Positions 9,305-59,570 of a stretch of DNA of 64,000 nucleotides are shown one piece after another. Position 1 is the stretch's first letter. Every line of letters begins with the position of its first letter. Position numbers and translations under genes: made by a program. This DNA comes from Actinomycetota bacterium. GTDB lineage: Bacteria > Actinomycetota > Acidimicrobiia > IMCC26256 > PALSA-610. Location: NCBI GenBank assembly GCA_005773635.1, contig SXHN01000111.1:1-64000 (forward strand). Direction: 5' to 3'. Below the pieces are notes generated by a model. It searched no databases and was not told the origin of the DNA. It saw only the letters and a program-made list of their open reading frames with translations.

Positions 9305-11440
9305 GTGTCCGTGCGTCGAAGCCTCGGCCCAATAGTGGCCGCGACCGTCGTACTGACGGTCGCGGTCGCGACCTGGGGCGGGCGCCCGGTCACGGGCGAA
9401 AGTCTCATCCAACTCCTGATATTTGCGCTACCGCTCGCTGGCATTTTCGCGTTGGCTGCAACCGGGCTTGTCGTCGTGTACACCACCACCGGCGTCTTTA
9501 ACTTCGCGCAAGGCGCGATCGGGATGCTGGCCGCGTACGTGTACTGGCAACTACACGTAGATTGGGGTTGGCCGAACGTGTTGTCCGTGGCCGTGACCGT
9601 TCTCGGGTTCGCACCCGCGTTTGGTTGGATGCTGAACCGCCTGATCATGCGGCACCTCGTTGGCAAAGACCTGGTGGTGCAGCTCATGGTTACGGTCGGT
9701 TTGCTGCTCGGGTTCATCGGAGTGGCCAACACAATCTGGGATCCGAATCAAAGTCATACGGTAAATCCATTCTTCGGCATCGAGGGCTTCCAAATTTCAG
9801 GCGTTACCCTCACTTGGCACCGTTTGATCGCGTTGGTCGTTGCAGTTGTGTTGGTTGTCGGCTTGCGATTCCTGCTCTACGCGACCCGACTGGGCATCGC
9901 GATGCGGGCCGTTGTTGACAACCAAGGGCTCGCACAACTCAGCGGTGTACCGTCGGAGCGCGTCTCGTCGTTTTCCTGGATGTTGGGATCGTGCCTTGCC
10001 GCGCTTGCGGGAGTGTTATACGCGAACGAAATCGGGGTCGGCGCATCCCTAGTCCTAGCGACGCTCGTACCAGCGTTTGCGGCGGCCGCGGTCGGGCGCA
10101 TGCGGAGCCTCCCCCTCACGTACCTAGGGGCATTGATCCTTGCGCTCCTCATGCAATTCGCGTCGGTGTATCTGTCGTTCACCGGCGATTGGCAACCAGC
10201 CAAGGAACGCATCCCTGAAGTGATGCTGTTTGTGGTGCTGCTGTTACTACCTCCTGCGAGCTTGAAGTTCGCGCGTTTTAGCGGAGTGCGACGACGGGCA
10301 CGAGTCGTACCCCCGCGCCAAGGTGCGATCGGACTCGCGGTCCTTGTCGTGACGATGCCCCTGTTTGGGCTTTTGCAGTCGGCGACCAATCTCAGTCGCC
10401 TCACGTTGGCAATGGGTCTTGCAATCGTCGCGCTGTCCTTGGTGCCGCTCACCGGTTGGGCCGGACAAGTGTCATTCGCTCCCCTCGCGTTCGCAGGCAT
10501 TGGCGCGGCAGCGTTTGCTCACTTTGGCGGCGAATCCGGCCGTCCGTTGGCCATCTTGATTGGAGCGATCGCCGCCGCGCCCGTCGGTGCCGCTTTGAGC
10601 CTCATCGCAGTTCGACTTCAAGGTCTCTATCTCGGCCTAGCCACATTCGCATTCGCATACTTCACCCGAGACGCGATTCTCAACAACTCGCGGATGTACG
10701 GCGGCGTATCACTGACGACGCCTCGCCAAACGTGGTTCGGCATTTCATTTTCCGGTAACCAGGCATACCTCACGTTGTTGACCGTCGTATTCGCGATCAT
10801 TGCGTTGGCGCTCATGGCAATCCGAACGTCGTCGTTTGGGCGACGTCTGGTGGCGATGCGCGACAGCGAGGCAGCTTCCGCGACTGTGGGCGTCAATATT
10901 TTTGAGACCAAAGTGGTGGTATTCACGATTTCAGCCTTCGTCGCGGGGCTCGGCGGTTCGTTTCTCGCGATGTTCTACATCAATACAGACTCGGGCCGCT
11001 TCGAAGCGATTGCAGGGCTCGGCCTCGTATTGCAAATGGTCGTCGGCGGAATCGCCTTAGTCTCTGGTGCCGTATTTGCCGGCGTCTTTCAACTGCCGAT
11101 CATCATCCTGCGCGAGAAATCCGCAGAAGTTTCCTGGCTGCTTTGGCTCGAACCAAAGCTACGCGGCTTAGAACAAATCGCGCCTGGGTTCGCGGCATTG
11201 GGCATCATCCAAAATCCTGAGGGCGCGGTCGTCGCCGTAGGCAAAGGCTTTGCCCCGCTAGTACCTGGAGACACAGCAGCACGCAAGGTCGCAAGCGCTG
11301 AACGCGCCCGTAAAGCCGAACGCTATGCCGCGCAGTCAAGCGAAATAGGGCTCTCGATCGCGCTGACGGCGTCGTCGATCGCAGAAGTCGAACGCCAGCT
11401 GCGTGTCACCGACGCGTTGGCACCGCGGGGTTCGTCATGA
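9305..11440 (+). CDS. Fused LivH-LivM branched-chain-type ABC permease 2
   Basis: A 711-residue fused permease, paralogous to the one at 3685-5862. The LivH half has TTTGVFNFAQGAIGM and the LivM half has GWAGQVSFAPLAFAG. A long hydrophilic tail follows the last helix, as in copy 1. The GTG at 9305 directly follows the lipoprotein stop (one base between). An ATG at 9251 in the same frame would overlap the lipoprotein by about 50 bases and is less likely. The stop overlaps the next ATG by four bases, indicating translational coupling to the LivG-like ATPase. Confidence 0.9.
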   Translation: MSVRRSLGPIVAATVVLTVAVATWGGRPVTGESLIQLLIFALPLAGIFALAATGLVVVYTTTGVFNFAQGAIGMLAAYVYWQLHVDWGWPNVLSVAVTVLGFAPAFGWMLNRLIMRHLVGKDLVVQLMVTVGLLLGFIGVANTIWDPNQSHTVNPFFGIEGFQISGVTLTWHRLIALVVAVVLVVGLRFLLYATRLGIAMRAVVDNQGLAQLSGVPSERVSSFSWMLGSCLAALAGVLYANEIGVGASLVLATLVPAFAAAAVGRMRSLPLTYLGALILALLMQFASVYLSFTGDWQPAKERIPEVMLFVVLLLLPPASLKFARFSGVRRRARVVPPRQGAIGLAVLVVTMPLFGLLQSATNLSRLTLAMGLAIVALSLVPLTGWAGQVSFAPLAFAGIGAAAFAHFGGESGRPLAILIGAIAAAPVGAALSLIAVRLQGLYLGLATFAFAYFTRDAILNNSRMYGGVSLTTPRQTWFGISFSGNQAYLTLLTVVFAIIALALMAIRTSSFGRRLVAMRDSEAASATVGVNIFETKVVVFTISAFVAGLGGSFLAMFYINTDSGRFEAIAGLGLVLQMVVGGIALVSGAVFAGVFQLPIIILREKSAEVSWLLWLEPKLRGLEQIAPGFAALGIIQNPEGAVVAVGKGFAPLVPGDTAARKVASAERARKAERYAAQSSEIGLSIALTASSIAEVERQLRVTDALAPRGSS

Positions 11441-12174
11441 CGAGTCTCACCGTCCACGACGTTTCGGTGCGATTCGGCGGATTGACTGCCGTCGACGCCG
11501 CGTCATTCACGGTCGAGTCGGGCTCGGTCACTGGTTTAATCGGACCGAACGGCGCAGGCAAGACAACGCTCTTTAATGTGATCACTGGGCTCCAGGCGCC
11601 GTCGGGCGGCACTGTGACACTCGATGATCGCGACCTTCGTAAAGCGAAGCCGTACAAACGCGCGCGGCTCGGCATCGCTCGCACCTTCCAGCGATTAGAA
11701 GCATTCGGAAGCCTCACGGTGCGCGAGAACGTCTTGGTCGCTGCAGAGATGCGCCGACGATGGTCGACGACGAAATACGACGCGGCCGAAGAAACCGAGA
11801 CGATTTTGGGCCGGGTTGGGATTCAGCATCTAGCCGACGCGCGCGCCGAAGACCTGCCAACTGGAAACGCCCGCCTCGTCGAGGTCGCGCGGGCCCTTGC
11901 GGTCAAACCATCGGTGCTGCTGCTCGACGAGCCATCTTCTGGGCTCGACGAATCGGAAACCGATGTCTTAGGCGTCCTCATGCACGCGCTTGCACAAGAA
12001 GGTCTAGCGATCCTGCTCGTGGAACACGACATGCCGTTAGTGATGACCACTTGCAATTACATCAATGTGCTCGACTTCGGCAAGATCATCGCGCGGGGCA
12101 CCCCAACCGAGATCCAAAATGATGAACACGTTCAGCGTGCCTACCTTGGGTCGGTCGCAAAGGCAGAGTCATGA
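11437..12174 (+). CDS. livG: LivG-like ABC transporter ATPase
   Basis: A 245-residue ABC ATPase. Walker A GPNGAGKTT sits near residue 36, the Q-loop region at ARTFQRLEAF, and Walker B LLLLDEPSSGLDE near 160 with the switch His in VEHDMPLV. The ABC signature reads LPTGNARLVEVA instead of LSGGQ, the same departure as in domain 1 of the fused ATPase at 5864. That suggests it is characteristic of this LivG branch. It overlaps both neighbours by four bases. Its partner ATPase is the next gene, and together they drive the second importer. Confidence 0.92.
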   Translation: MTSLTVHDVSVRFGGLTAVDAASFTVESGSVTGLIGPNGAGKTTLFNVITGLQAPSGGTVTLDDRDLRKAKPYKRARLGIARTFQRLEAFGSLTVRENVLVAAEMRRRWSTTKYDAAEETETILGRVGIQHLADARAEDLPTGNARLVEVARALAVKPSVLLLDEPSSGLDESETDVLGVLMHALAQEGLAILLVEHDMPLVMTTCNYINVLDFGKIIARGTPTEIQNDEHVQRAYLGSVAKAES

Positions 12175-52335: not shown

Positions 52336-53139
52336 ATGCCCGAGCTTCCCGAGGTAGAAACCATCCGCCGTGCGCTCGAACCCGCACTCACGGGGCGAAC
52401 GATCGTTGATTCGGGTGCGTTTGCGTCGGCCAAGTTTTCAGATGCAACACTCGCGACAGGCAGCACGATTGAAGCAGTTCATCGGCGCGGAAAGTATCTG
52501 ATATTGCCGCTCGACAACGGCAATGAAATGATCGTGCACCTGGGCATGACTGGCGTGTTACGAACAATGTCGGTGCACACCAGCGACGACAAATTCCTTC
52601 GGGCTTGGTGGCAACTTGACGACGCACGAGTGTTCGAATTTTCCGATGTTCGACGCTTTGGGCGTGTCGCAGTCGTTCGCGGCGGCGACTACTCCGGCTT
52701 GCCCACCCTCGCAACCCTTGGCCCCGAGCCGCTGAGTGCACACTTCACGAGCGACGGTTTCTACCGAGCGTTGAACCAGTCAAGCCGAGCTATTAAGACC
52801 CAGTTGTTGTCGCAACGACCTGTGGCTGGAGTGGGAAACATCTACGCCGATGAAGCATGTTGGATCGCCCGAGTGCGACCGGCGGCGAGGTCGATTACGA
52901 AGCCTTCCGCCGCCCGGCTGCGCGATGCAATCAGAGAAGTCCTTGCTGCCGCGATCCGTCGCAGCGGCACGACGTTGCGTGACTACCGAACGGTCGACGG
53001 CGGATACGGCGAACATCAACACCATCTCTTCGCGTACGGCAGATTCGGACAACCGTGCCAGCGGTGTGCGACGCCACTTCGCCGCAGCGTCGTCGATGCA
53101 CGGACGACCACACATTGCCCGACGTGTCAACGAACATGA
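52336..53139 (+). CDS. mutM: Formamidopyrimidine-DNA glycosylase (Fpg/MutM)
   Basis: A 267-residue DNA repair glycosylase that removes oxidised purines such as 8-oxoguanine. After Met removal, the N-terminal Pro is the nucleophile: MPELPEVETIRR. The conserved Lys lies in RRGKYLIL, and GNIYADE is the helix-two-turn-helix segment. The C-terminal zinc finger is QPCQRCATP and HCPTCQRT. The length is normal for the family. It is preceded by a crotonase gene on the same strand and converges with the YqgE gene. Confidence 0.95.
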   Translation: MPELPEVETIRRALEPALTGRTIVDSGAFASAKFSDATLATGSTIEAVHRRGKYLILPLDNGNEMIVHLGMTGVLRTMSVHTSDDKFLRAWWQLDDARVFEFSDVRRFGRVAVVRGGDYSGLPTLATLGPEPLSAHFTSDGFYRALNQSSRAIKTQLLSQRPVAGVGNIYADEACWIARVRPAARSITKPSAARLRDAIREVLAAAIRRSGTTLRDYRTVDGGYGEHQHHLFAYGRFGQPCQRCATPLRRSVVDARTTTHCPTCQRT

Positions 53140-53158
53140 TCCACTACTGACTCGAGAG

Positions 53159-53722
53159 TCAGTTGTCGTTCGGGTCGTCGGGATACTGCGCGACCCATGC
53201 GAGCGGCGAGGTCTGACGTCGCAGCACTGCCTGCCACAATCCATCCGGATCATCACTCAAGGCATCGTTTGCCTGCGCGTCGCATACGAACCATGCTTCC
53301 TCGCGCAACTCCTGTTCGAGTTGCCCACTCGACCATCCTGCATACCCGACGAAGAGCCGCGCCAACGCGACACCTTCCTCAAAATCAAACGGATCCCGAT
53401 CAAGATCTGCCATCCCAAGGCGGCCAACGATGGGTGACCACGACGACCCCGCAACCTCTGGGTCGGTCACGAGGGCTAGACAGAACGCCGCCTCGGGCTG
53501 CACCGGCCCGCCGCCGAACAGCACTAGCGGCTCCGAAGTCACAGCCGCCCAGGGTTCGATCGCGTCGAAAACAGCAGTATTCGTTGGCCGATTCAGAACC
53601 AGGCCCAACGCTCCATCATCGCTGTGATCGATCATCAAAATGACGGTCCGATCAAAATGCGGGTCGGTCAGCACAGGGGCCGCCACCAGAAGTTTCCCTA
53701 CGAGTTCACCCGGCTTCCACAT
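53159..53722 (-). CDS. yqgE: YqgE/AlgH family protein (UPF0301)
   Basis: A 187-residue protein of the UPF0301 family. The N-terminal GKLLVAAPVLTDPHFDRTVIL, then GALGLVLNRPT and FGGGPVQPE, are the family landmarks. The ATG at 53722 follows GAGGATG and is preferred over a GTG at 53743. Function is not well defined. It is convergent with mutM and divergent from the SpeD-type fusion, with a palindrome in the gap. Confidence 0.92.
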   Translation of the reverse strand: MWKPGELVGKLLVAAPVLTDPHFDRTVILMIDHSDDGALGLVLNRPTNTAVFDAIEPWAAVTSEPLVLFGGGPVQPEAAFCLALVTDPEVAGSSWSPIVGRLGMADLDRDPFDFEEGVALARLFVGYAGWSSGQLEQELREEAWFVCDAQANDALSDDPDGLWQAVLRRQTSPLAWVAQYPDDPNDN

Positions 53723-53867
53723 AGCTACATCCTCGCGCACCAAACCGATCAGATTTTTTCAATCCAACCCGCCAGTCGGCTCCGAATACCGCGTACGCGG
53801 CCGGCGGCGTACGCTGCCTCAGCGTCAGCTGACACCGACCGTTACGTAGCAGTACAAGGTTTTCTGT

Positions 53868-53931: not shown

Positions 53932-55104
53932 GTGCAAAACGGTGTCGGCCAACAAATGATCTGCGAATTTTGGGGTGCAACGAACCTCGATGATGTCGCT
54001 ACAACCGAACGGGCTTTGCGCGATGCAGTTCGTGCGGGAGGCGCGACGCTGGTTGAAATATTCGTGCACCGTTTTTCGCCCCACGGCATCTCGGGCATCG
54101 CAGTTATTGCTGAGAGTCATCTGGCAATACATACATGGCCGGAAATGGGCTACTGCGCCGCGGACTTTTTCACGTGTGGCGATTCGGTCGACATGAACGC
54201 AATCGTGCGAACTCTCCGCGATGCCTACCAGGCTGATCAGGTAGACGTGCGCACACTCCCGCGCGGTGTGCGTCCGGGTGAGTACACGCAGGCATCGTTT
54301 CAAGACACAACAGAAGGCCGCCCAAGCATCGCATTCGGTATCGATACGATTCTTGAACGACGCCAGACCCGCCATCAGGAGCTACTCCTGTTCGAATCCA
54401 ACGGCGCAGGTCGCGTACTCGCACTCGACGGCGCGCTGCGCACTACTGGTCTCGACGCGGCGGCCTACTACGAAACGCTCGTGCATCCCGCGTTGCATTG
54501 CCACCCCGATCCACGTCGCGTCGCAATCGTCGGCGGGGTCGATCTCCATTCCTTAACGGAGGCGTTGCATCACGAGGTCGAATCGGTCGACCTCATTGAA
54601 GCTGACGATGAAGCGATTCGCATCGCGCAGCAATACTACGAAGAAGTACAAGGCAGCCTCGACGATCGTCGAGTGCACCTCCACACGGGCGACATCGTGG
54701 CGACGCTGCAAAACTGTCGCGACATCGACGTTGCAATCATCGACCCCGTCGACCGCATAGGTTCGACGGTATCCACCGCGTTTCGCGCATTGATCGACGC
54801 AGTCGAAGGCGCTCTGGCGCCCGACGGTATCGTCGTTTTGCCAACCGGCATTGCGCACGAAACGAACAGTACGCTGCGAGATCGAGTACGCGCACTTGAG
54901 GCTCGATTCCCACATACGGAGTTGCTCTGGACGACAGACGCAACCGCGCCGGGATCACTCAGCACATTCGCATGCGCTAGCCGGATTCACGACCCGCGCG
55001 AAGTGCGTCGCTTCCCAGCCAACATTCAGACTGAGTGGTACGACCGAGATATGCACAACTGGTATTGGCTGCCCACCCCGAAGCGAAAACAACTGGTGGG
55101 CTAG
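53932..55104 (+). CDS. speD: SpeD-like pyruvoyl decarboxylase fused to a degenerate spermidine-synthase domain
   Basis: A 390-residue fusion. Residues 1-120 match class 1B AdoMet decarboxylase: the self-processing site ESHLAIHTWPE with Ser62 and His67, and Cys82 in ADFFTCG, all in place. Residues 130-370 match spermidine synthase by YYETLVHPAL and LALDGALRTT. But the cofactor loop GGGDG reads GGVDLHS, the VEID motif reads IEAD, and the substrate motif DSTDPVG reads DPVDRIG. So the first domain should be processed to a pyruvoyl enzyme, while the second may be inactive or altered. SpeD relatives fused to SpeE homologues have been reported to decarboxylate ornithine or arginine. Which applies here is unknown. 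Confidence 0.88.
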   Translation: MQNGVGQQMICEFWGATNLDDVATTERALRDAVRAGGATLVEIFVHRFSPHGISGIAVIAESHLAIHTWPEMGYCAADFFTCGDSVDMNAIVRTLRDAYQADQVDVRTLPRGVRPGEYTQASFQDTTEGRPSIAFGIDTILERRQTRHQELLLFESNGAGRVLALDGALRTTGLDAAAYYETLVHPALHCHPDPRRVAIVGGVDLHSLTEALHHEVESVDLIEADDEAIRIAQQYYEEVQGSLDDRRVHLHTGDIVATLQNCRDIDVAIIDPVDRIGSTVSTAFRALIDAVEGALAPDGIVVLPTGIAHETNSTLRDRVRALEARFPHTELLWTTDATAPGSLSTFACASRIHDPREVRRFPANIQTEWYDRDMHNWYWLPTPKRKQLVG

Positions 55105-55187: not shown

Positions 55188-58100
55188 TTAGGGCGTACAG
55201 GTCGTGCCATCCAGCACCGAACATGCAAGACCGCCGGCACCGCTAACACCGCTGCCGCCTGCGACGCCGGAGACTCCATTGCCACCACCATTCACGAAGT
55301 CGCCGCTGCTGTCGAACGTACCGTTCCCAGGATCACGAGGCAAACCGCCGACGCCGCCAACTCCTCCGTTGCCGCCGACACCTCCCAATCCGCCGACCGC
55401 AGCCGCCGCGTGCACAAGATTGGTGCCTGCGCCAATTGTCGCAGAGCCGGTTCCGATATGCAGTACTGCAACGGATGGACCAGATTGGCCAGCACCGCCG
55501 CCGCCACCACCACCGCCACCACCAGCGCCACCACCAGATCCGGCGTTACCGCCTTTGGACTGTTTCTCGCCTTGGCCGCCGTTACCACCGTTACCGCCGT
55601 TACCGCCGTTACCGCCGTTGCCACCATTACCGCCGGCGTTAGCAGTAAGGCTGGCTCCACTATTGGCCGTCACGACAACGGAGGCATTGTGAGCGTAGAC
55701 CGCGAACGATCCTCCGCCAGGCGTACCTGCGGTTCCATTCGTGCCCGTGGTACCACCGCCACCGCCACCTGCGCCACGACCACCGTGAGCGCCGCCGGCG
55801 CAATAAGTACCACCGCCACCACCCGCGCCGCCACCGCCATAACCGGAGGTGCCGTTGGTGCCATTCGAGCCCGCTTGGCCAGCCCAAGTGGAGCCGGCAA
55901 ACGCAACTCCGCCAGTGCCACCGGTCCCCGCTGCGCCAGACGAACCAGGGCTGCCGAGACCGCCACCTGAGCCGCCACCGCCGTTGCCGGGTGAAGGTGT
56001 GATGCAATAGCCACCGCCACCGCCACCGCCAGCACCAGTCACGCCGCCACCGGTTCCGCCGGAGTTGCCGTTACTGCCCGAGGAGAAGAACCCTCCCTCG
56101 GCACCGCCACCGCCTCCAAATCCACCGGAAGCGACCCCGCTCCCGCCGCAGCTTGAACCGTTGCCCGTGTCGAAAGCGACGTGGCCAGCGCCGTTGCACC
56201 CGTTAACGCCATTCGTGCCAGCAGTGCCATTCGTTCCTGGCATACCAGCATCAGAAGACACTGACGAGTTTGTGATTGTCACGGTTGCGCCACTGATGGC
56301 ACGCACTCCGTACACCGATGCGCCGGTGCTGAGACCGGTGTTCCGACCTCGCAAGGTCAGCCCGTCAAATGTCACGGTGAGGCCACTTACCGTTGCAGCC
56401 TGAGGTGCGCCTTCGATCACACTCATCGAGTTGTCGGCGGTTCCCCCCGACCCAGCAGATCCTGGCCGACTCCAGCCGCCGTATTGGTCGAAGCCACCGA
56501 GTAACGACACGCCGCTCGATGGGCTCACACCGCTACCGGCGGCAAAGGTGCCCGCACCGACAGCAACCTGAGGTCGAGCCTCGGCCGCAGCAGTCGTTAG
56601 TGCCGCAGCAACGGTCAATTTCGGCGCCGCAGCGGTGCCAGGGTTGGAGTTGCTGCCGCCGGGAGCGACGAATACTGCATTGCGCACTTCGAAGGTCGTC
56701 GAGGCCGAAGTGGTCGTCAGCCCCGACCAATCGGACTGCTCTGCTACTGCGGTGTAGATGCCAGTCGCGTATGCAGCAGGCGACGCTACGTTGAAAGTGC
56801 CGCCTACACCCGCAGCGTTGAGCGTCTCAAGTACCGAACCTGATGTATTCGCGCCGTTGTAGACGGTTACTACGACGCTGGTTGCGTCGCCGTCGGCGAT
56901 GCCTGCATCTCCGGTGAAGTTCGGCGCAGAAGCAGAGTCACGGTTACTGCCCGTTGTCGGGCTGAGCAACGCGACAACCGGCGCACCCGCATCATCAGCG
57001 CCAACGGCCGTACCCCTCGCGCTTGCGGCACCAGCACCCGCGCGGTTCTTCGCCCGCACTTCATACATACAACTTGTAGAACGTCCACATGCTGCATGCA
57101 GCGCACGCACGTTGGTTCCGCCGCCGGTATTCGCCCACGCCGAAAAGAATGTTCCGGCATCGGTGGACACTCGGAATTCGTATCCAGTGAGTGCGCTACC
57201 GCCGTTATCAGCCGGTGCCGTCCAGTCGAGTTCGGTCCCACCCAACGTGGTGAGCGCGGTCGTCGCAGCCAAGGCAGTAGGAGCCCCTGGCACGGCAATG
57301 TCGCCGTCGTCGAGGATGTTCACCGTTGCGCTGTTGTCAGTAATGACAGCATTCACGCTTGGGGTGGACAACTGCACCGCAAACGCTTCGTTACTCTCAC
57401 GCAACGTATCTGGACGGACTTGCAGCACCACGTAACGCACGCGCTGCCCAGGTTTGAACGTGATCAATTTATTGATCTTTGCGACATAGTCGGTACCTGC
57501 CGTGGCAGTGCCGTTAACCGTCGTGTACCGCAACGAAACGTTGGTCGTCGCTGGATGGCTCAGGTGGATCGACGCGGTGACTTTGCGGTTCGCGCCAGTG
57601 TCTCCCTCAACGACAACCATGTCGTCGATACTGATCTCCACAGGCGCGGCGGTCGGCGAGTCGTCATCGAGGATCGTGACCGTTCCAATGCTGCGTTCGA
57701 TCAGCGTGCCCGCCGAGTTGTTGTACAACATGACGGTAAATACTTCGTTGCCTTCTGCCACCGAATCGGCATTCACCGTGATGCTCGCCTCAAAGCCGGC
57801 GCGCCCGGCGAGGAAGTTTGCCTTCGTACCGGCAATGGCCGCGAAGTCGCTCGGGCTAGTGGCGGTACCAGGAACCGTCTTGTAATAAATGTACGCCCCG
57901 GTATTACTCGCTCGATCCATCGTGATCGGCACTTTTACTTTGTAGACATTTGATGGTGCTGCTGCGTCGCCCTCTCGCATCGTTGCATCACCGATGGAGA
58001 AGGAACTCGGCTTCGCCGTCGCTTCGCTGATCGTTGCGGTTGCGAGCGATGGTGTGCCCGCCCCGATCGCGGCAGAGAACGTGAAGGTACGCGTCGGCAC

Positions 58101-59570
58101 AATGTCCCACACGCCGTCGAGCACCGTCGGGATCGTGACGCTCTGGGTGAGCGATCCGCCCGGGTTGAACGTCAGCGAGCCGGTAGCGGACGCATAGTCG
58201 CCCGGTGCCGTCGCGGAACCGTTGGCAGTCGAGTAGTTCACGGTGATCGCGTCGCGCGGGTGCGACAACAGCGTGACTTTGCAAGCGATAGGGCTGCCTT
58301 CCGCCGCAGAATCACAGACCGACTCAATGCCAGAAAACTCATCGTCGACGATGCGCGCATTGACGGCGCTGCCTTCGCCGCCACCGGTGACGCTGGTGAT
58401 GTCAAGCGCGAATTCCTCCGCGTTTTCGAGCACGGCATCGTTGAGCACTGGAACGGTGACGGTCTGATGCACCGAACCAGCTGATGTATACGTCAACGTT
58501 CCGGAGGTAGTCGTGTAGTCAGAACCCGCAACGGCTGAACCGTCTTGAGTGGTATAGGCAACCACCACGGTGCCCGAAACCGGGGGCTTCGTCAGCGCGA
58601 CATCGAATGCAACCGTTGCTCCTGGGCCTTCGGTAGCAGTGCCGCCTTTGACCTGCGTTATCGGAAGATCCACGACTGAATACGAGACCGATTGAGAACT
58701 CGCATTGGCGCGGGTGTCTGTGGCATTGACAGTAAAAGTCTTTGCGCCGAGGGAAGCAGTGTTGATCGGCGCACCGTTGGCGCTCGTGCCAACGCACGTT
58801 GCAACGCCCGAAGGATCGCTGCAGCTGAAGTTACCGTTGACAACTTGCCCCAACGAGAACGACTGCCCCGATATTGGAGCAACGATGGAAATCGTCGGGC
58901 CGCTCACGTCGGGAGCAACGATGGAAGTTCCATGCACGAGCGTGGCAGGGTTGCCAGGCGCGTAACACTTGACGAACACGTCAAGTGCACCGATTGGGGA
59001 CGCGACGTTGGCAGTGAAGTTGAACGAAGGGTTACCGTTGTCGTTGAACGTCGGAGCGCCACCCAGGCGCAGCTCTGCGGTTTGGCCAATCGAACCTGTT
59101 GTGGTGACATTGTAGGTGATCGATGGCGGAGTGATCTGTGCACCACCAGCAAAGCTGTTGTTATTGGTGAGCGTGAGGACGCCTCCCGTGCGGTTCGAGC
59201 TCCAGCCGCCCGATCCACCGACCACGTTCACACTATTCACGGTGACGCGAGTGGGATCCGGAATTTTGAAGTTAATCCCGCGCATGTTGTTGAGGTTGTA
59301 GCCACCGCTTGAGGTGGGCACCGCCACGGGGTCAATGGTCGCGACGATAGAGAACGCGGTGCCCGGCTCGACGGTGTCGGGCGCAGTGCCATGCCAAATC
59401 AGGTCGACCGCCGTGCTCGATGGTCCTGCAAGCGTGGTATCCGGGTAGGCAGTGCAGGGGAAAGACACTGGCACATTCTGAGTGTGTGCCTCACTCGTCG
59501 AGGGCGCCCAGGCCATGGCGCCTAACGCAGTTGCAACAACTGTGACAACGGCAAGCGATTTTCGAATCAT
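55188..59570 (-). CDS. Large secreted Calx-beta / fibronectin-III / Gly-rich repeat protein
   Basis: A 1460-residue protein. A signal peptide (to about residue 28) is followed by a beta-rich domain and an Ig-like part near 240-310. Four Calx-beta-like domains follow (about 315-785), with repeated motifs such as GTATAGTDY and AVAGSDYTT, and Asp-rich loops that would bind Ca2+. A fibronectin-III domain lies near 790-890. The last 500 residues begin as a beta-helix (VFVAPGGSNSNPGTAAAPKLTVA) and end in a PGRS-like Gly-rich zone with GGN repeats. The strong GGAGGG ribosome site suggests efficient translation. No sortase motif or C-terminal anchor is visible. It is probably a secreted adhesin, matrix or surface protein. 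Confidence 0.88.
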   Translation of the reverse strand: MIRKSLAVVTVVATALGAMAWAPSTSEAHTQNVPVSFPCTAYPDTTLAGPSSTAVDLIWHGTAPDTVEPGTAFSIVATIDPVAVPTSSGGYNLNNMRGINFKIPDPTRVTVNSVNVVGGSGGWSSNRTGGVLTLTNNNSFAGGAQITPPSITYNVTTTGSIGQTAELRLGGAPTFNDNGNPSFNFTANVASPIGALDVFVKCYAPGNPATLVHGTSIVAPDVSGPTISIVAPISGQSFSLGQVVNGNFSCSDPSGVATCVGTSANGAPINTASLGAKTFTVNATDTRANASSQSVSYSVVDLPITQVKGGTATEGPGATVAFDVALTKPPVSGTVVVAYTTQDGSAVAGSDYTTTSGTLTYTSAGSVHQTVTVPVLNDAVLENAEEFALDITSVTGGGEGSAVNARIVDDEFSGIESVCDSAAEGSPIACKVTLLSHPRDAITVNYSTANGSATAPGDYASATGSLTFNPGGSLTQSVTIPTVLDGVWDIVPTRTFTFSAAIGAGTPSLATATISEATAKPSSFSIGDATMREGDAAAPSNVYKVKVPITMDRASNTGAYIYYKTVPGTATSPSDFAAIAGTKANFLAGRAGFEASITVNADSVAEGNEVFTVMLYNNSAGTLIERSIGTVTILDDDSPTAAPVEISIDDMVVVEGDTGANRKVTASIHLSHPATTNVSLRYTTVNGTATAGTDYVAKINKLITFKPGQRVRYVVLQVRPDTLRESNEAFAVQLSTPSVNAVITDNSATVNILDDGDIAVPGAPTALAATTALTTLGGTELDWTAPADNGGSALTGYEFRVSTDAGTFFSAWANTGGGTNVRALHAACGRSTSCMYEVRAKNRAGAGAASARGTAVGADDAGAPVVALLSPTTGSNRDSASAPNFTGDAGIADGDATSVVVTVYNGANTSGSVLETLNAAGVGGTFNVASPAAYATGIYTAVAEQSDWSGLTTTSASTTFEVRNAVFVAPGGSNSNPGTAAAPKLTVAAALTTAAAEARPQVAVGAGTFAAGSGVSPSSGVSLLGGFDQYGGWSRPGSAGSGGTADNSMSVIEGAPQAATVSGLTVTFDGLTLRGRNTGLSTGASVYGVRAISGATVTITNSSVSSDAGMPGTNGTAGTNGVNGCNGAGHVAFDTGNGSSCGGSGVASGGFGGGGGAEGGFFSSGSNGNSGGTGGGVTGAGGGGGGGYCITPSPGNGGGGSGGGLGSPGSSGAAGTGGTGGVAFAGSTWAGQAGSNGTNGTSGYGGGGAGGGGGTYCAGGAHGGRGAGGGGGGTTGTNGTAGTPGGGSFAVYAHNASVVVTANSGASLTANAGGNGGNGGNGGNGGNGGNGGQGEKQSKGGNAGSGGGAGGGGGGGGGGAGQSGPSVAVLHIGTGSATIGAGTNLVHAAAAVGGLGGVGGNGGVGGVGGLPRDPGNGTFDSSGDFVNGGGNGVSGVAGGSGVSGAGGLACSVLDGTTCTP
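55575..55640. repeat. 9-base tandem repeat encoding GGN
   Basis: The unit ACCGCCGTT, with small variants, repeats about six times on the plus strand. On the minus strand it encodes Gly-Gly-Asn units in the Gly-rich end of the 1460-residue protein. The unit is in frame, so slippage would change length without a frameshift. Confidence 0.85.

Follow-up and report, generated by a model that had tools for sequence, protein, structure and literature searches.

What has become of the synthase half of a SpeD-SpeE fusion in which the decarboxylase half looks intact and the substrate site of the synthase does not? The question is raised by a gene in the window (the whole stretch of DNA that was analysed, 64,000 nucleotides), whose features are collected in Table 1. 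Pfam models for AdoMet_dc (PF02675, 6e-32), Spermine_synt_N (PF17284, 2e-6), and Spermine_synth (PF01564, 1e-26) matched the product, and phmmer searches with the fusion matched the spermidine synthases of B. subtilis, E. coli, and other organisms as well as the SpeD of T. maritima. Since both enzymes were recovered, the fusion is real: an N-terminal class 1b SpeD is joined in frame to a C-terminal SpeE homologue, which is the arrangement of an AdoMetDC-aminopropyltransferase fusion. Homology starts at the internal in-frame ATG. A comparison of residues found those of the SpeD half complete and those of the SpeE half incomplete. The host genome, which its relatives assign to the Acidimicrobiia (Actinomycetota), is a draft (3.56 Mb in 125 contigs, 95% complete, 1% contaminated), and this leaves some room for an assembly chimera or a gene corrupted by frameshifts. 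However, the contig is collinear with another genome of the same genus on both flanks of the gene, the frame is open throughout, and the protein can be aligned with intact homologues over its full length with hardly an indel, which makes an artefact of this kind extremely improbable. An ORF artefact or a random match was likewise rejected, given the Pfam domains, the alignment to intact fusions, and the collinear locus.

Table 1. Positions in the window of the fusion gene, its domains and altered motifs, and the neighbouring genes.
Feature	Position	Strand	Remarks
SpeD-SpeE fusion ORF	53932..55104	+	390 aa from GTG 53932; likelier start ATG 53956, giving 382 aa
SpeD (class 1b AdoMet decarboxylase) domain, apparently intact	53956..54267	+	PF02675 and TIGR03330 over cut-offs
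Pyruvoyl Ser codon of SpeD domain	54115-54117	+	
Interdomain linker, residues 105-125	54268..54330	+	Low confidence in model
SpeE-like domain, altered substrate-site residues	54331..55101	+	PF17284/PF01564; spermidine-synthase fold in model
GGVDL replacing GGGDG/V	54532..54546	+	Asp104 equivalent kept
IEAD replacing VEID/LELD	54595..54606	+	Glu124 equivalent kept
DPVDRIG replacing D-S/L-TDPIG gate-keeping loop	54742..54762	+	Asp173 and Asp176 equivalents kept; T175 and P177 changed
Upstream neighbours: mutM-like (+), AlgH/YqgE-like DUF179 (-)	52336..53743		
Downstream neighbour, Calx-beta/Gly-rich protein	55188..59570	-	Partly collinear with same-genus genome

The earlier note had read Ser62, His67, and Cys82 in the pyruvoyl domain, and all three are there (numbered from the GTG; Ser54, His59, and Cys74 when counted from the ATG). 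The SpeD half scored 114.7 bits with the NCBIfam AdoMetDC equivalog TIGR03330, for which the cut-off is 75.65 bits, the SpeD half of the structure model matched the T. maritima SpeD fold (Z 18.8), and the domain groups with the SpeD halves of intact fusions. No second SpeD was found in the 125 contigs of the host genome. Among SpeD-derived enzymes, the ornithine decarboxylases termed SpeDC have four diagnostic residues, Gln, Thr, Phe, and Tyr, and a Pro that is completely conserved in true AdoMetDCs is not conserved in the arginine decarboxylases termed SpeDA (PMC10407285). The text of that paper leaves open which Pro is meant, and both candidates in the central region (in SPHG and HTWPE) are present in the fusion. 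The sequence thus argues for an ordinary AdoMet decarboxylase. The lead option of the earlier note was that the pyruvoyl half had become an ornithine or arginine decarboxylase. A missing source of agmatine or putrescine speaks for it, as an agmatinase is encoded and yet no ornithine or arginine decarboxylase was found in the three families searched (see below). Nevertheless, the equivalog cut-off is passed, the Ser, His, Cys, and Pro residues are kept, the domain evolves at a normal rate, and it is the sole SpeD in a genome with an intact free SpeE that needs decarboxylated AdoMet (dcAdoMet). An altered decarboxylase specificity is therefore unsupported; a switch to ornithine or arginine appears unlikely, and we give the lead option very little credence. 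The accompanying premise, a frequent fusion of neofunctionalised SpeDs to SpeE, is at odds with three papers (PMC10407285, PMC11107197, PMC12803844). The first describes proteins in which SpeD is joined to SpeDC, each a pyruvoyl domain, and the AdoMetDC-aminopropyltransferase fusions studied in the other two are true AdoMet decarboxylases.

Two related fusions of the same domain order, linker position, and linker length served as references for the SpeE half: a 393-amino acid protein in genome G011 (locus L067), a member of the same taxonomic family, and a second one in Acidimicrobiia bacterium Dino_bin48 (L011). Unlike the host protein, both have complete SpeE motifs (GGGD, LELD, DLTDPIG, and VQxTDxDTYVYHE). 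The earlier note had described GGGDG, VEID, and DSTDPVG as lost. They are indeed altered, to GGVDL, IEAD, and DPVDRIG, and LRTTGLDAAAYYE stands where VQxTxxDxxxYHE is expected, but the functional acids remain; complete loss of the motifs was rejected because the catalytic acids are kept. Twelve contacts (Q49, Q70, Y79, Q80, D104, E124, D155, D173, D176, Q206, E208, and Y241), among which D155 is one that we take to be a contact residue, were compared in an alignment of the fusion with the two intact fusions, free SpeEs, and solved enzymes. Roles for most of these residues have been described (PMC12812037, PMC10146546), and the alignment was anchored on the K. lactis numbering Y73, D98, D167, D170, and Y235 (PMC10146546). 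Both intact fusions have the expected residue class at all twelve positions, with His for Gln80 as also seen in other bacterial enzymes, versus 7 of 12 in the host protein. Retained are the acids D196 (human D104), E215 (E124), D246 (D155), D263 (D173), and D266 (D176), which include the complete catalytic Asp triad (human D104, D173, and D176), as well as Q141 (Q49) and Y171 (Y79). Replaced are Q70 by Arg (R162), His/Gln80 by Tyr (Y172), Q206 by Pro (P296), and Y241 by Ala (A331), and the TDP of the gate loop has become VDR by changes of T175 to Val and P177 to Arg. Residues Q70, His80, T175, P177, Q206, and Y241 are present in both intact fusions and lost in the eroded SpeE half. Further replacements are the third Gly of GGG by Val, P180 by Ser, L184 by Thr, E208 by Gly, and a conserved Phe by Ala; the changes of P180 and E208 weigh less because neither is invariant among active-looking relatives.

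As a spermidine synthase, the fused SpeE probably has no activity or a strongly reduced one. Activity can persist in divergent SpeEs, for example in the H. pylori enzyme, and motif loss alone is therefore no proof of inactivity. The scores of the eroded half with TIGR00417 (144 bits, cut-off 249.6) and NF002010 (151 bits, cut-off 260) were the lowest of the compared domains. The intact fusion L011 (223 and 259 bits) and the free SpeE (192 and 233 bits) also fall below these cut-offs, which are thus uninformative on SpeE function. AlphaFold2 gave a confident spermidine-synthase fold (mean pLDDT 83), with T. maritima spermidine synthase 1inl as the best fold match to the SpeE half, tied with those that follow it (Z 32.9, rmsd 2.2, 259 residues aligned, 26% identity). 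Homology and fold are in this way supported by PF01564 and PF17284, both over their cut-offs, and by the Z score; the host domain differs from 1inl in that several typical substrate-site residues of spermidine synthases are replaced. Residues 267-272 of the gate loop have a pLDDT below 50 in the eroded fusion, and the model of the intact G011 protein has no such dip. From the prediction it follows only that a spermidine-synthase fold is compatible with the sequence.

The two halves have evolved at very different rates. A relative-rate test on the host fusion, G011, and L011 counted 86 unique changes in the host SpeE half versus 20 in that of intact G011 (p=6e-11), and 7 versus 10 in the SpeD half (p=0.63). 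The SpeE half has thus evolved about fourfold faster than its intact counterpart and is about 41% identical to the nearest intact fusion, a distance at which synonymous sites are presumably saturated. In the tree its branch length is 1.25, versus 0.24 and 0.36 for the intact fusions, and that of the SpeD half is 0.09, the shortest of its clade. The branch of the host's free SpeE is of ordinary length (0.17); the acceleration thus concerns this domain and not the whole genome. Despite this pace the frame is open and the coding GC pattern is kept across the SpeE half. When an intact sequence was evolved neutrally in simulations to 60% identity, only 1.7% of the products were without a stop. Of the 43 sites that are conserved in 7 or more of 10 other SpeEs, 30 were kept, and of the 96 variable sites 36, a retention of conserved sites with P=0.0008 under uniform loss. 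These two results disfavour a SpeE half that was a neutral pseudogene throughout its history. The data agree with relaxation after an initial constrained phase once about 30-40 of 87 losses are placed in that phase (P=0.05-0.17).

The same locus is found in related genomes, which share the position of speD beside the mutM-like and DUF179 neighbours. In the other genome of the host's genus (G001, the same record as L012, with an identical SpeE locus) it runs collinear to window positions of about 46-64 kb, with a nucleotide identity of 64-80%. The distance from SpeD to the downstream block is about 1,128 bp in the window and about 318 bp in G001, where about 810 bp, the SpeE domain, are absent; the downstream edge of the missing domain is fixed by the alignment of the Calx-beta/Gly-rich gene. 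That gene encodes a product of 1460 amino acids that contains four Calx-beta domains and is rich in glycine in its C-terminal part, and parts of the gene are about 64% identical in nucleotides to the same-genus genome. The speD of G001 ends in RGIPPQGYELRELQASDAATAS and a stop codon, a short linker that is probably a remnant of the interdomain linker, and tblastn found no remnant of SpeE. Genome G006 also has speD at the same upstream position without SpeE. The fused SpeE halves form a clade with 100% support and the five SpeD halves (fused and two unfused) one with 98%. This indicates an ancestral fusion followed by two losses of SpeE or, less simply, by one loss and one regain. Gain of the domain would take an equal number of steps (a loss and a regain versus two losses), but it needs the same SpeE lineage to be regained at the same junction. 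Searches of the phylum (396 genomes) and of the order found no further orthologous fusions. Phage records contained no close match; the matches were mostly SpeD-only cyanophage proteins, and one Microcystis phage has separately annotated speD and speE genes. Another SpeD-SpeE fusion in the same order (L003, positions 1297-2781, genome G028) is a 495-amino acid frame with a Thermus-like SpeE and intact motifs, and is apparently an independent fusion event. An alphaproteobacterial SpeE near speD (L018, 4498-5430, minus strand) has YAD for YHE and DRPDPVG for DSTDPVG and lies on a long branch. Polyamine genes are patchy in the family of G011: SpeD is absent in G003, G009, and G013, which belong to the genus of G011, and SpeE is absent in G003 and G009, the two that were searched.

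These loci bear on the idea that the SpeE half is a maintained pseudoenzyme, either a dimerisation scaffold or a sensor of dcAdoMet or methylthioadenosine (MTA) that would stabilise or regulate its decarboxylase partner. The open frame, the retained fold, and the preserved nucleoside-side residues would fit, and there are precedents: human spermine synthase depends for its dimerisation on an inactive AdoMetDC-like half (PMC12803844), and a dead paralogue activates the trypanosome AdoMetDC (PMC5201418). However, the same-genus genome and G006 have a SpeD without a SpeE domain, and the fourfold acceleration suggests a constraint that has been loosened and not maintained. We consider a maintained pseudoenzyme rather unlikely.

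The host (contig 9), G001, and G006 each encode a free Thermus-like SpeE (GGGEG, DMTDP), a type different from the fused one, in which the key contacts are preserved; those of G001 and G006 are 78.7% and 67% identical to the host copy. No free Thermus-like SpeE was found in G011 (86% complete) or in the genome of L011, where only SpeE relatives with longer frames occur; of these, one was inspected and proved membrane-fused. Presence of the free SpeE thus coincides with an eroded or absent fused SpeE in 5 of 5 genomes, a pattern that rests on these five genomes only, a small sample in which G011 is 86% complete. As for the supply of the acceptor, PF01862 and PF01276 are absent from the host genome, and its one PF02784 protein is the diaminopimelate decarboxylase LysA. 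The agmatinase is encoded on contig 35 (locus L079). In L011 a PLP-dependent decarboxylase of the ornithine/DAP/arginine type (10849-11982) lies 3.6 kb downstream of the intact fusion. Because the host has an agmatinase but no ornithine or arginine decarboxylase in the families searched, and L011 has the PLP-dependent enzyme, a putrescine-based route may have been replaced in the host genus by another acceptor or by uptake.

A possible difference in acceptor supply between the host and L011 is one reason to ask whether the fused SpeE is still an aminopropyltransferase whose acceptor has changed. The equivalents of D104, E124, D155, D173, D176, Q49, and Y79 are kept while acceptor-side residues are altered, the fold is retained, and family-conserved sites are preferentially preserved. 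But Q70, Q206, Y241, and the Pro and Thr of the gate loop are conserved in both SpeE types compared, the Thermus-like one included, so that their loss is unlike a simple acceptor swap; in addition, a free SpeE is already present in the genome, and related genomes do without the domain. A changed acceptor therefore seems doubtful. Taken more broadly, repurposing of the SpeE half, whether into a regulator or scaffold that binds dcAdoMet or into an aminopropyltransferase with a new acceptor, is less likely than decay but a serious possibility, in which the dcAdoMet/MTA-binding and catalytic acids would have been kept and the acceptor side and gate loop rebuilt.

The explanation we favour, with a probability of about 0.6, is that selection on the SpeE half relaxed after its step had been taken over by the free SpeE. 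An ancestral bifunctional SpeD-SpeE fusion would have passed to the host lineage, which retains both halves. Its functional class 1b SpeD half would supply dcAdoMet to an unlinked SpeE of a different type, and because the free enzyme would use this dcAdoMet, the fused SpeE half would have become redundant and free of part of its selective constraint. Residues that bind the acceptor and position the aminopropyl group would then have eroded, with the fold and the catalytic acids persisting so far, and the expected endpoint would be deletion, as is the case at this locus in G001. The open frame, the coding GC pattern, the predicted fold (Z 32.9), and the retention of five acids and of the Q49 and Y79 equivalents all speak against decay; drift of the fused SpeE toward a pseudoenzyme or deletion is nevertheless the best reading. 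The suggestion that the second domain has become structural is supported in so far as the domain seems to have departed from its original role, given the acceleration, the lost contacts, the free SpeE, and the relative without the domain, and a structural role as such remains the less probable part of it.

Several known proteins share features with the host fusion. Those of Ca. Pelagibacter (PMC11107197) also combine an N-terminal class 1b AdoMetDC with a C-terminal aminopropyltransferase, but both of their halves are experimentally active and make spermidine and spermine or thermospermine, unlike the eroded SpeE of the host. Bacterial AdoMetDC-SpmSyn fusions have the same architecture, and active AdoMetDC-aminopropyltransferase fusions occur in a delta-proteobacterium and a Krumholzibacteria bacterium (PMC12803844). 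Some SpeD-SpeDC proteins, for example that of Victivallis vadensis (PMC10407285), resemble the host fusion in having a functional N-terminal AdoMetDC and a degraded C-terminal domain, but what has degraded in them is a second pyruvoyl domain and not a SpeE. Animal spermine synthase descends from a fusion of the present kind, has lost the decarboxylase activity, and keeps that half for dimerisation (PMC12803844); the human enzyme was matched over residues 1-345 of the host model. In animals the decarboxylase half died; in the host that half looks intact, and it is the synthase half that is eroding. A literature search found no report of an active-looking decarboxylase with an eroding synthase half, which does not prove that there is none.

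What is new here is that related genomes show the fusion in intact, eroded, and deleted states, the last as a lone SpeD, and that two of these states occur at the same locus. With such a series it becomes directly testable how one half of a bifunctional enzyme of polyamine synthesis escapes selection once its step has passed to another enzyme. Animal spermine synthase lost the opposite half of the same kind of fusion, which makes the host protein its natural counterpart; if the SpeE half should prove to be repurposed, it would be the mirror image of the animal enzyme.
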